The notes below the pieces were generated by a model. It was not told the DNA's origin. It saw only the letters and a program-made list of their open reading frames with translations, and ran no database searches. Both the position numbers and the translations under genes were made by a program. This document shows, in pieces, positions 4,963-29,691 of a stretch of 64,000 bases of DNA. Source of the stretch: Candidatus Thalassospirochaeta sargassi (GTDB taxonomy: Bacteria > Spirochaetota > Spirochaetia > UBA9216); the NCBI GenBank assembly GCA_028532855.1, contig JAQQAL010000021.1, forward strand, positions 1-64,000, read 5' to 3'. The first letter of the stretch is position 1; the number at the start of each line of letters is the position of its first letter.

Positions 4963-5403
4963 TCAGCGCTGAAAGTCGTTGCGATAATCTATCCCCTCTG
5001 GGGGATATTGATTTCTGTATAGAAAAAGCAGGCGGAGATTCAGCATTTCACCTCCGTATTCAATAAAACTTTTATCCCAGTCCAGAGAGTCTCCATTTAC
5101 GATTATATCGTATCGCCTGCGGTGCCCCTCGGGATATCGTTCATCCCAACTTAGAAACCACGACCAGACCTCTTCAACCTCTATAATTTTATATTCTACA
5201 GATCCCTCAACCCTTTCCAGATATCGATTATTCTTCAGCATATTTATGCAGTAAACTGCGCTTTCGGCATCAAGCGAAAAAGGAGCAGAACCCGGAATTA
5301 TTATATCATCAAACTTTATCGAATCCTGCGTATATAGCTGTCCGCCGGACAGCATTAAGAATATTAATAAAACGTAAAAAACCGGCTTCTGTCTTTCATG
5401 CAT
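4963..5403 (-). CDS. Exported protein of unknown function
   Basis: I do not recognise this 146-residue protein. It begins with a short charged stretch and a hydrophobic segment (PVFYVLLIFLMLSGGQLYTQ) that looks like a Sec signal peptide, so it is probably periplasmic or outer-membrane facing. The mature part is rich in Asp, Glu, Tyr and Trp and contains VWSWFLSWDERYPEGHRR. Its ATG overlaps the end of a 38-codon upstream reading frame by 8 bases, which suggests translational coupling or a frameshifted longer gene. It converges on arsJ. Confidence 0.6.
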   Translation of the reverse strand: MHERQKPVFYVLLIFLMLSGGQLYTQDSIKFDDIIIPGSAPFSLDAESAVYCINMLKNNRYLERVEGSVEYKIIEVEEVWSWFLSWDERYPEGHRRRYDIIVNGDSLDWDKSFIEYGGEMLNLRLLFLYRNQYPPEGIDYRNDFQR

Positions 5404-24063: not shown

Positions 24064-25332
24064 ATGAACATAAAAGCTGTAATACTTGACAGCAGTAATT
24101 CCAAAGATGACGCCCTGGAATTACTGATAAACAAGGCATCCATCCACACAAATAAATTATCCGGAACTGAGATTAAACACCTGGTGCATGAAAGAGAAAA
24201 AATCGCAACAACATTAGTGTCAGAAAATATCGCCTTTCCTCATGCTGTCAAACAGGGTATGGATGAAAGCCTGATTATACTAGGCGTGGGTCGCAAACCG
24301 ATTCTATGGACTAAGCCTGATCAGTATGTACAGGTGATCGTCCTATTTGTCGGAGGAAACAAACAGCATCTGCAATCCATGAGTTTTACTGCCAGGATAT
24401 TGCGAAACCCGGTAATCCTGAAAGAAATCCTTAATGCAGAGGATGAGAAGGATGTACTTGATATCATCCGCAGAAACTCAGCTGCAACCGACAACCCGGC
24501 CGATTCTGAAAGTGCGCAGGAACATAATATCGCCATGCTGAAAGCGGCCGAAATGCTTCAAACGGAATTACACAACTCGGCTCTTGCTGTCATCGATGAT
24601 GTGTTTTCAAGCAGTAAACCGGCCAGCAGCTGGTATGAAAATTTTGACGGATGGGTTTTGACCACCAGAAGCTGCTGTCTGTCTGATAAAGACATTGCAG
24701 AAGACAGACAGGTATCTATTTCCAATTCCGATATCATTTTTACCGAAAATGAATTAAAGCACTTAACAATGGAGGGATATTTCAAAGATATAGATTCTCT
24801 GATAATCCTCTATGGCAAGCAGGCAAGCAACAGCATTTCTTCAATACGGGTTGTTAATCTTCAGCACAAAGAAGAGATAAGCTTTATTGAAGGTATTCCA
24901 TATGACGTTTCACGGAGAGCCCTGCAGCTTGCCCGCGAAATCGGTATGGAAGGGCGTGAAGGAAAACCTGTAGGATGCCTCTTCGTAATAGGTTCCGAAG
25001 AAACATTGAAAGACTACACACATCAACTCATAGTTAATCCGTTTTCAGGCTATCCGGAAGAGCAGAGAAATATCATTGATCCTTCACTGGAAGAGACCGT
25101 CAAGGAATTCTCCAAGATAGACGGGGCATTTATCATCAAACCTGACGGCACTATTAAATCAGCAGGAACCTACATTGCTATCTCGCCGCAGACCCTGGAG
25201 CATCACCCCGGAGAAGGGGCGAGACATGCGAGCGCCCGTGGCATAACAGCTGTCACAGACTGTCTTTCCATCGCAGTATCCGAGTCTACCGGTCGAGTAT
25301 CCGTATATGCTAGGGGTCAGAGGATCCTATAG
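24064..25332 (+). CDS. PTS EIIA-diadenylate cyclase (DisA_N/DAC) fusion protein
   Basis: This 422-residue protein joins two domains rarely seen together. Residues ~3-140 are a PTS EIIA type-2 (fructose/PtsN) domain with IAFPHAVKQGMDES, where His60 matches the phosphorylated histidine. Residues ~290-422 are a DAC domain: DGAFIIKPDGTIKSAGTYI gives the DGA motif, and GEGARHASARGITAVTDC the RH-containing motif, followed by LSIAVSESTGRVSVY. The usual RHR is RHA here, as in some archaeal-type DacZ enzymes. It should make c-di-AMP from two ATP, perhaps under control of PTS phosphorylation. The middle (~150-290) is unassigned. Its 3' end overlaps the convergent msrA gene by 23 bases. Confidence 0.85.
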   Translation: MNIKAVILDSSNSKDDALELLINKASIHTNKLSGTEIKHLVHEREKIATTLVSENIAFPHAVKQGMDESLIILGVGRKPILWTKPDQYVQVIVLFVGGNKQHLQSMSFTARILRNPVILKEILNAEDEKDVLDIIRRNSAATDNPADSESAQEHNIAMLKAAEMLQTELHNSALAVIDDVFSSSKPASSWYENFDGWVLTTRSCCLSDKDIAEDRQVSISNSDIIFTENELKHLTMEGYFKDIDSLIILYGKQASNSISSIRVVNLQHKEEISFIEGIPYDVSRRALQLAREIGMEGREGKPVGCLFVIGSEETLKDYTHQLIVNPFSGYPEEQRNIIDPSLEETVKEFSKIDGAFIIKPDGTIKSAGTYIAISPQTLEHHPGEGARHASARGITAVTDCLSIAVSESTGRVSVYARGQRIL

Positions 25333-26056
25333 AATCACGCAGATACGTCGCGCCCTTTTCGGACAGACCATAGCTGCTTAATTCCGCCTCCAGTTCTTCA
25401 GCTGTTCCGTATCCGGAAACATATCCGTTCAAACGGGCTGCTATTGTAGAATTTACAATCTCCTCTTCGGATGAATGAACGTTTAAAAATTCAGACATCA
25501 GAAACTTATCAGCCTGAAGAAAGTACTTCTGATGGTAAAACTCTGCGAGGGTGAACCCCGTTAACGGCGCAACTGCAGTAGTAAAGACTACTCCTGCCGC
25601 CTTTTCTCTATTGCTTTTTGACTCTTCAGCCAGCAACCTCTGTTCTTCATTATGATACAGAATTATTGACCGGTATTGACTGAACCCGCCGCCGTATAGG
25701 GGATTGTGGCTGTCCCAGAAAAGTTCCAGCAGCCTGGAATATGAAATAATCTCAGGATTATAATCTATCTGAATAGTTTCGGTGTGATTGCCGATATTCT
25801 GGTAAGTCGGATTATCCGTTGTTCCGCCGGCATAACCAACCCTGGTGCGAATGACTCCTGGTAACTGCCCGAACCGGGCATCAGGGCCCCAGAATCATCC
25901 AAGGCCGAAGGTAGCTGTTTCTACTCCATCAGACCGGGGAATATCAACCGGAGAAGTTTTAAAATCGCCTGACGAATCCTGCTCCATACCCCCTGATGCC
26001 GAGATGGAGAATACAGCCATAGTCAGAATAAAGCCTGCAATAATCATCTTTTTCAC
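25310..26056 (-). CDS. msrA: Selenocysteine-containing peptide-methionine (S)-S-oxide reductase MsrA, exported
   Basis: The ORF track shows only the 3' part (25310-25636), but one frame runs from a GTG at 26056 (GGAGGT upstream) to 25310, 248 codons, broken by a single TGA at 25895-25897. The TGA is codon 54 and reads TATFGLG-[TGA]-FWGPDA; in MsrA this position is the catalytic Cys of GCFWG, so TGA most likely encodes selenocysteine. Downstream are GVIRTRVGYAGGTTDNPTY, GFSQYRSII and EFYHQKYFLQ, all standard MsrA. A signal peptide (IIAGFILTMAVFSISASG) sends it to the periplasm. There is no cysteine at all, so no resolving Cys. A bSECIS-like hairpin follows the TGA. A plain nonsense mutation is the alternative. 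Confidence 0.88.
25857..25885 (-). promoter_or_regulatory. bSECIS-like hairpin just after the msrA TGA codon
   Basis: On the coding strand, 16-28 bases after the TGA, GCCCG-GTT-CGGGC forms a perfect 5-bp stem with a 3-base loop, flanked by an outer CCTG/CAGG stem. The loop begins with G and lies 21-23 bases downstream of the TGA. This fits the bacterial SECIS rules as I know them: an apical loop about 16-37 bases from the UGA, a stem of at least 4 bp, and a G among the first loop bases. SelB would bind here. Confidence 0.75.
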
Positions 26057-26184
26057 CGACCACCTCCAATAGGTACTTTACTATTATACTAATGATTTAC
26101 TGTTAGGAGAAGGAAAAATAAACGCATTCTGAAAATTACCCTTACTTGATGCGAGGACCCCGTATCTAAATACAGTTTATTCAA

Positions 26185-27461: not shown

Positions 27462-27604
27462 ATAAAATAACATAAGCAGGGCTATTATTACCATTAAAAA
27501 GTAAATTACAGAAAGATAATTGCCTTTTCTGTCTTAATTCCGAAACAGCGTCCCCTGTGGTATGCCGAATTATTTTTACTCTAATAATTATTTATCGATA
27601 CAGC

Positions 27605-27633
27605 TTGACTTTTTTCTATATATATATTATTTT
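27605..27633 (+). promoter_or_regulatory. Candidate sigma-70 promoter for the CoA-disulfide reductase gene
   Basis: TTGACT at 27605 and TATTTT at 27628 are separated by 17 bases, within a very AT-rich stretch of alternating TA about 35-60 bases before the start codon. The -35 matches consensus well and the -10 only moderately. Confidence 0.4.
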
Positions 27634-27666
27634 ATATATATAACACAGACTATTATAGGGAAAAAT

Positions 27667-29691
27667 ATGAATAAGATATTAATTATAGGTGGAGTAGCAG
27701 CCGGAGCAACGGCAGCAGCAAGAACAAGAAGACTTGACGGTAAAGCGGAAATTACCCTGCTTGAAGCCGGAGATGATGTATCATTCGCAAACTGCGGGCT
27801 GCCATATTATATAGGCGGAGATATTGAGAGCCGATCATCCCTGATACTTGCCAGTACTGAAACATTCAGAGATCAATATCAGGTTAAGGTACATACCGCA
27901 ACCGAAGCAATTAATATTGATCGGGAAGCAAAACAGGTTACCGCACTGAATAAAAAAACAAACGAAGAAAAAGTATATAAATACGACAAACTCATCCTCG
28001 CACAGGGAGGAAAACCTATAGTCCCGCCTATACCGGGAGCAACTCAGGACAATGTGTTCCAGCTCTGGACCCTTGATGATATGGATGCAATAGATGAATT
28101 CATAACAGAAAATGAGCCTGAAACTGCCGTAGTTGTCGGCGGAGGGTTTATCGGCCTTGAAATGGTAGAGGCATTGAGCAAGAGAGGAATGAAGGTGAGC
28201 CTTGTTGAGATGTCTCCGCAGATTATGCCAAACCTTGAGAGCGAAATGGCAGGATTTCTTACGAAGGAGCTGCAGGATTACGGGGTTAAACTTCACCTTG
28301 GAACTGCCCTTGAGAGCATAAAAGACAAAACAGCAAAGCTGTCAAATGGGAAAACACTTGATGCGGACATGATACTGATGTCTGTAGGAGTTCGCCCAAC
28401 CCTGAAACTTGCCCGGGAAAGCGGACTTGACATCGGTGAGGCCGGAGGGCTGCTCGTTAATGACATGCTCAGGACAAGCGATGAATCAATCTTTGCCGCC
28501 GGAGATATGCTTGAAATTGAAAACAATATCAACAACCGCAAGGTTCGTATACCCTTAGCCGGTCCAGCAAACAGACAGGGCCGCATGGCGGCAGAGAATG
28601 CCCTCGGAGGAAACAGGCACTACAAGGGAGCAAACGGCACCAGCATTGTAAAGCTTTTCGGTGCGGTTGCCGGCAGCGCAGGGTTAAGCCTGAAACAGGC
28701 AAAGGTCGCGGGGTTTGATGCAGATGCGGTTGTAGTGCACAAGGCCAGCCACACAGCCTATTACCCCGGCAGCGAAAAAGTCAGTCTGATGATGATTTTT
28801 GACAGAACAAACGGCAAAGTACTTGGCGCGCAGGCTGCTGGCCGTCATGGTATAGACAAGCGTATTGATGTAGTCGCAACGGCTATTGCCGCCGGCATGA
28901 CACTGAGTGACCTGGAAGAACTGGACCTCGCGTATGCGCCACCGTTTAACAGCCCCAACGGGCCTGTGCACATGGCAGCTTTCACCGCGGAAAACCACCG
29001 TACAGGATTCAGCCCGTCAATCCTTGCTTCTGAACTGGAAGATTTCCTTCCCGGAAAAGAAGTTATAGCACTGGATCTGCGTGATCCTATAACATTCAGC
29101 AAGGCAAATCTGAAAGGTTCTGTAAACATCAGCCAGAACATCCTAAGAGAACGGATGAATGAACTGCCTGAAGATCATCCCATACTCCTGATAAGTGAAG
29201 ATGGACAGAAGGGCCATGTATCGCTTCGAATGCTTAAGGGCGAAGGTTTTGATAATGTTTACAACCTTTCCGGAGGCTATATATCGCTCGAACGGTATGA
29301 AAGAGCCTGCCCTTCGGCGAACCTGCAGATTGGACTTCTTCCGATTGAAAACAAGAGTATTGAAGATCTTGAAGCCGGGAATCAGGAGAAAACTTATGAA
29401 CCAGTTGATGGATCTACAGCAATAGAAGAATCAGACAGCACAGGCACAATTGTTCTTGACGTCAGAACACCGATGGAATTCAACATGGGAGCCTACCCCG
29501 GGGCTGTAAACATCAACCTTGATGAGCTGCCTGCCCGCGCCGATGAACTCGGGCCAAAGGATCGTGAGATACTTGTATACTGTGCAAGCGGCGCACGATC
29601 AAGCTACGCTCAGCGTATTCTTATGGAGTCAGGTTTTACAAACGTCGAGAATGTCGGAGGACTTCACGACATGATGGCAAGGGCAAGCTGA
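27667..29691 (+). CDS. CoA-disulfide reductase-type flavoprotein with two C-terminal rhodanese domains
   Basis: The true start is the ATG at 27667 (MNKILIIGGVAAGATAAART), with AGGG a few bases upstream; the track's start at 27562 lies in the AT-rich leader. The 674-residue protein has an FAD/NAD(P) disulfide oxidoreductase core with active cysteine in SFANCGLPYYIGG (~Cys43), as in CoA-disulfide reductase and persulfide reductase. Two rhodanese domains follow: the first (VIALDLRDPITFSKANLKGS) has ISEDG where the active cysteine should be, and the second (VLDVRTPMEFNMGAYPG) keeps it in YCASGARS. It probably reduces CoA or glutathione persulfides in sulfur metabolism. Confidence 0.9.
   Translation: MNKILIIGGVAAGATAAARTRRLDGKAEITLLEAGDDVSFANCGLPYYIGGDIESRSSLILASTETFRDQYQVKVHTATEAINIDREAKQVTALNKKTNEEKVYKYDKLILAQGGKPIVPPIPGATQDNVFQLWTLDDMDAIDEFITENEPETAVVVGGGFIGLEMVEALSKRGMKVSLVEMSPQIMPNLESEMAGFLTKELQDYGVKLHLGTALESIKDKTAKLSNGKTLDADMILMSVGVRPTLKLARESGLDIGEAGGLLVNDMLRTSDESIFAAGDMLEIENNINNRKVRIPLAGPANRQGRMAAENALGGNRHYKGANGTSIVKLFGAVAGSAGLSLKQAKVAGFDADAVVVHKASHTAYYPGSEKVSLMMIFDRTNGKVLGAQAAGRHGIDKRIDVVATAIAAGMTLSDLEELDLAYAPPFNSPNGPVHMAAFTAENHRTGFSPSILASELEDFLPGKEVIALDLRDPITFSKANLKGSVNISQNILRERMNELPEDHPILLISEDGQKGHVSLRMLKGEGFDNVYNLSGGYISLERYERACPSANLQIGLLPIENKSIEDLEAGNQEKTYEPVDGSTAIEESDSTGTIVLDVRTPMEFNMGAYPGAVNINLDELPARADELGPKDREILVYCASGARSSYAQRILMESGFTNVENVGGLHDMMARAS

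Follow-up and report, generated by a model that had tools for sequence, protein, structure and literature searches.

The closest described system is the MsrA of Clostridium (Alkaliphilus) oremlandii OhILAs (PDB 4LWJ, 4LWM and 4U66; PMC4479559, PMC4333827), a characterised enzyme of the 1-Cys type, i.e. without a resolving Cys, which combines a catalytic selenocysteine (Sec), a mature protein free of Cys and a C-terminal helical domain. Its Sec form is 20-fold more active than the Cys form, it is reduced by glutaredoxin and not by thioredoxin, and a dimer through the catalytic residues can form during catalysis (PMC4479559). Another bacterial MsrA counted as a selenoprotein, that of Syntrophobacter fumaroxidans, is known here by its listing in a 2006 survey, in which MsrA is not among the selenoproteins of Treponema denticola (PMC1794560). 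Repair of methionine sulfoxide outside the cytoplasm is represented by the SpMsrAB2 system of S. pneumoniae, where exported Cys-MsrA/MsrB is found with the thioredoxin-like lipoproteins Etrx1 and Etrx2 and with CcdA (PMC3914529).

We analysed a window of 64,000 nucleotides from Candidatus Thalassospirochaeta sargassi (contig JAQQAL010000021.1). On its minus strand, a frame of 248 residues (25310-26056) runs from a GTG start at 26056 to a TAG stop at 25312-25310 and is interrupted solely by one in-frame TGA at 25897-25895 (codon 54), which falls within GLG-U-FWG, at the catalytic MsrA residue. With the TGA read through, the product matches the Pfam families PMSR (PF01625, E 5.6e-39) and MsrA_helical (PF20939, E 1.5e-8), the latter described in Pfam as "Selenoprotein methionine sulfoxide reductase A, helical domain"; this second match covers residues 197-233 (25360-25468, minus strand). 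Direct reading of the sequence shows an SD-like GGAGG just 5' of the GTG (GGAGGTGG, 26061-26068, minus strand). The gene contains no Cys codon, so that a resolving Cys is absent. A preliminary description of this DNA had claimed a complete MsrA frame broken only by a TGA at the catalytic position, a protein devoid of Cys and a gene reduced by ORF callers to a 108-residue fragment. All of this holds: the standard ORF list contains, for this gene, the 108-residue fragment 25310-25636 alone.

The comparison with known enzymes, which the same description had recommended, gives the C. oremlandii MsrA as the closest solved relative, with 85 of 186 residues identical (46%, E about 1e-51) and the TGA aligned with its Sec16. 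The active-site residues of that enzyme are all kept (Sec54, Phe55, Trp56, Tyr85, Glu93, Gln127, Tyr128, His175 and Tyr178). An AlphaFold model of the window protein built with 45 sequences reached a pLDDT of 88.4, and predicts helices over residues 197-243, most of them above 90. Its best PDB match by Foldseek is 4LWJ (TM 0.90 by target length), and the MsrA structures without the helical domain all rank lower. Sequence, MsrA_helical match, structural model and active-site residues place the window protein with the C. oremlandii Sec-MsrA, the characterised 1-Cys type without resolving Cys. Two differences are apparent: the host is a spirochaete, and the window protein is about 38 residues longer at the N-terminus, predicted signal peptide included. 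The enzyme type is thus already known; the less described part appears to be the export of the window copy and of many relatives.

The N-terminus of the window protein, VKKMIIAGFILTMAVFSISASGG (25988-26056, minus strand), is a predicted signal peptide, as had been proposed, and its hydrophobic segment is conserved (AVFSxxASG) in locus L021, which begins with MKKISTVLGLLAVAVFSLPASGN; the N-terminus of L022 is also signal-like. Signal peptides are predicted in the window copy and in its two relatives in the class. Across the family, a signal, an anchor or a lipobox was recognised in 34 of the 62 Sec copies whose N-terminus could be read (a lipobox in 14 of these 34) versus 3 of 20 Cys controls, by a simple, home-made rule which missed L075 and L076, positive by eye, and which may also give false positives. 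Judging from these N-termini, many members of the family look exported. A literature search returned no paper discussing an exported Sec-MsrA, a negative that carries little weight, most subscription papers lying outside the search.

The genome encodes two other, complete MsrA, three in total. On contig C2 an MsrB-MsrA fusion has a signal-like N-terminus. On contig C6 (L150, G000:C6:147500-153500) four genes follow one another on one strand and likely form an operon. They encode a thioredoxin-like protein, a 560-residue CcdA/DsbD-thioredoxin fusion and, both with signal-like N-termini, an MsrB and a Cys-MsrA. All three MsrA of this genome appear to act outside the cytoplasm, because each has such an N-terminus. 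This bears on the most serious alternative, that the Sec-MsrA is cytosolic, its translation starting downstream of the hydrophobic segment or the enzyme working without it. It would agree with the mere 15 residues that precede Sec in the C. oremlandii MsrA, with the 28 of 62 family members lacking a signal by our rule, and with a glutaredoxin as the known reductant of the C. oremlandii enzyme, the clearest glutaredoxin of this genome (YruB-type, CTYC) having no signal. We nevertheless consider a cytosolic enzyme improbable, given the GGAGG that precedes the GTG, the hydrophobic segment kept in L021, the signal-like N-termini of both other MsrA proteins and the lipobox of 14 relatives.

The distribution of the TGA was then considered. 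Among 98 genomes (own genome, genus, family and class), TGA occupies the same codon in three: that of the window, G007 (56% identity) and G059 (52%), both of the latter with a strong tRNA-Sec. The G059 gene is identical to a Spirochaetales MAG record, L066, itself a duplicate of L022. One further candidate, G009, was excluded, its single TGA lying off the catalytic codon, and weaker tRNA-Sec matches in relatives were left uncounted, most of them resembling tRNA-Ser cross-matches. The genus-mates G001, G003 and G004 have a tRNA-Sec and lack the Sec copy, so that the gene is patchy, or accessory, within the genus.

When one genome per species was scanned, at least 80 loci were retained. In total, at least 64 distinct intact genes (that of the window and 63 others) have TGA at exactly the catalytic codon; L071, in which the TGA is present and the frame shifts soon afterwards, was left out of the tests. 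A conserved TGA in relatives, suggested beforehand as a check, is therefore found in G007, G059 and 61 further loci. According to record titles these genes span about 12 bacterial phyla, single assignments being possibly wrong because most of the genes come from metagenome bins: besides spirochaetes, Bacillota, Chloroflexota, Planctomycetota, Actinomycetota, Thermodesulfobacteriota, Myxococcota, Nitrospirota, Synergistota, Acidobacteriota, Verrucomicrobiota and Deinococcota. The preliminary description had confined bacterial Sec-MsrA without resolving Cys to "a few anaerobes", which does not hold for so widespread a family. The long-form Cys versions are mainly haloarchaeal among the matches listed. 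In a maximum-likelihood tree Cys copies are interspersed with Sec copies, with at least three changes, and the Cys copy of Halanaerobium saccharolyticum pairs with a Sec sister (support 99/96). No relative was found in the viral contigs searched.

In the gene neighbourhood of the family, MsrB is the sole conserved partner, encoded next to msrA chiefly in Actinomycetota/Coriobacteriia; the loci linked to MsrB are L121, L103, L062, L077, L091, L097, L098 and L101. MsrB is apparently fused upstream of Sec-MsrA in L121 and downstream of a Cys version in L103. Some Sec-MsrA end with a short Cys tail (L056, L069, L070, L100 and L106, with GCPL, SCPL, TCPVR, KCPVV and SCPAPKK), whose Cys could be a resolving one; the window protein has no such tail.

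If TGA is read as Sec, a bSECIS element is expected after it, and the preliminary description had reported a hairpin of this kind with its loop 21-23 bases past the TGA and G as first loop base. The stem is indeed present, as GCCCG-GUU-CGGGC at positions 19-23/27-31 (U of UGA = 1), with the loop at 24-26, i.e. 21-23 bases past the TGA, and G first. The whole apical stem-loop, pairing 18-23 with 27-32, occupies 25866-25880 on the minus strand (loop GUU, 25874-25872). Folding of this sequence alone adds a lower stem, in which the UGA region pairs with 25858-25850, to give a predicted hairpin of -21.1 kcal/mol over 25850-25899. At this single locus the 51-nt fold has a z of -2.4, and 1.4% of synonymous recodings of the same peptide produce this 5-bp stem with a G in the loop.

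Across the 64 homologues the signal is far beyond chance. Synonymous recoding of each gene, with codon usage taken from the locus in question, gave for the hairpin region a mean z of -1.88 (SE 0.11) in the 64 TGA genes versus -0.48 (SE 0.21) in 20 Cys genes. The pairs 20-30, 21-29 and 22-28 are jointly intact in 58 of 64 TGA genes versus 1 of 20 Cys genes, a contrast to be taken as indicative and not as matched, because the Cys controls cover a wider diversity and come in part from other lineages. The first base of the apical loop is G in 63 of the 64. Two further pairs covary: pair 23/27 alternates between G-C (33 genes) and A-U (18), with 11 A-C exceptions (Fisher p 2e-8), and pair 19/31 between G-C (23) and U-A (17), with 9 G-A exceptions (p 5e-7), kinship being ignored in both tests. 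On the 64 sequences, RNAalifold alone did not recover the stem and gave a different, very weak structure (-0.47 kcal/mol), so we scored the stem directly, as a named structure. In it 86.7% of the cells pair, and the covariation score is 0.380 versus at most 0.157 with slid partners; none of 500 shuffles reached 0.380. On supported branches only, independent covariation pairs are too few for significance and none contradicts the stem. A search of Rfam at a permissive threshold returned chance matches and no SECIS family. The Cys-MsrA (TGT) of a Bacteroidota bin (L117, about 4996-5030) retains a stem found in Sec genes, GCCCGGTTCGGGG, perhaps a fossil SECIS following a recent Sec-to-Cys change.

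The genome, 3.8 Mb in 53 contigs, has a complete machinery for Sec. Its tRNA-Sec (anticodon TCA, UCA in the RNA) scores 68.6 bits and forms one cluster with the adjoining selA and selB; selD is also present, so that the four genes named beforehand as a check (selA, selB, selC and selD) were all found. Among the peroxiredoxin-like, glutaredoxin and DsbD proteins that this genome encodes, no in-frame TGA was found. Machinery, covarying SECIS and codon conservation together lead us to infer that Sec is inserted at UGA-54. A pseudogene, i.e. a former Cys-MsrA hit by a random nonsense mutation or misread in sequencing, might be suspected from the patchy occurrence within the genus and from the two other complete MsrA genes; it is made very unlikely by the same TGA in at least 64 genes of many phyla, by the otherwise intact frame, by the covarying stem and by the complete machinery, and we give it almost no weight. 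Reassignment or suppressor reading of TGA, e.g. as Trp or Cys, for which no supporting point was found, is hardly credible because TGA is a normal terminator (10 of the 33 long frames of the window) and the tRNA-Trp seen has a CCA anticodon, and because tRNA-Sec, selA, selB and selD accompany a SECIS after the codon. A spirochaete gene apparently interrupted by a stop is thus, almost certainly, intact and codes for an enzyme that uses selenium to repair oxidised methionine. As a whole, the locus is best explained, with very high confidence, as an intact selenoprotein gene for a Sec-MsrA of the 1-Cys type with a predicted export signal.

The following mechanism may be proposed. SelB, acting on the hairpin just past UGA-54, would deliver Sec-tRNA(Sec) and yield a full-length MsrA with a catalytic selenocysteine, which the predicted signal peptide would direct out of the cytoplasm. 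By homology, the selenol would reduce methionine-S-sulfoxide and become a selenenic acid. With no Cys in the protein, the selenol must be restored by a thiol from elsewhere: by analogy with the C. oremlandii MsrA, a glutaredoxin-like or thioredoxin-like protein may provide it, possibly by acting on a dimer linked through the catalytic residues. More speculatively, the best candidate donor in the envelope is the exported thioredoxin-like/CcdA-DsbD relay encoded on contig C6 with an exported MsrB and MsrA, a gene set comparable to SpMsrAB2/Etrx/CcdA of S. pneumoniae (PMC3914529). The enzymes of SpMsrAB2-type systems rely on a catalytic Cys, whereas the window protein has Sec and no Cys to resolve the intermediate. 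For the family, we tentatively raise a broader view, to which we lend somewhat less than even credence: exported Sec-MsrA enzymes, periplasmic or anchored as lipoproteins, would form a large clade that extends across many phyla and is for the most part mis-annotated; they would work beyond the cytoplasm with no resolving Cys, fed by a DsbD/CcdA-thioredoxin relay and not by glutaredoxin.

Two other genes, on the plus strand of the window, were also recorded. The first (24064-25332) encodes a 422-residue protein made of a PTS EIIA type 2 domain (residues 4-137) and a DAC diadenylate cyclase domain (294-419), and this gene and msrA share 23 bases at their 3' ends. From its domains, this fusion would link sugar transport to c-di-AMP; a literature search found no paper naming both the PTS EIIA and DAC terms. 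The second (27562-29691) encodes a 709-residue protein of the CoA-disulfide-reductase kind, a pyridine nucleotide-disulfide oxidoreductase that also carries two rhodanese domains.

The chief value of these results lies in the breadth of the Sec-MsrA family and in its exported subset. Counts of a widespread enzyme of methionine repair are probably too low, because ordinary ORF calling cuts the present gene, and likely its relatives, to a fragment. If the export prediction is true, many bacteria would keep a repair enzyme based on selenium in their envelope, the first place that oxidants hit, and which envelope thiol reduces an enzyme without resolving Cys would become a directly testable question.
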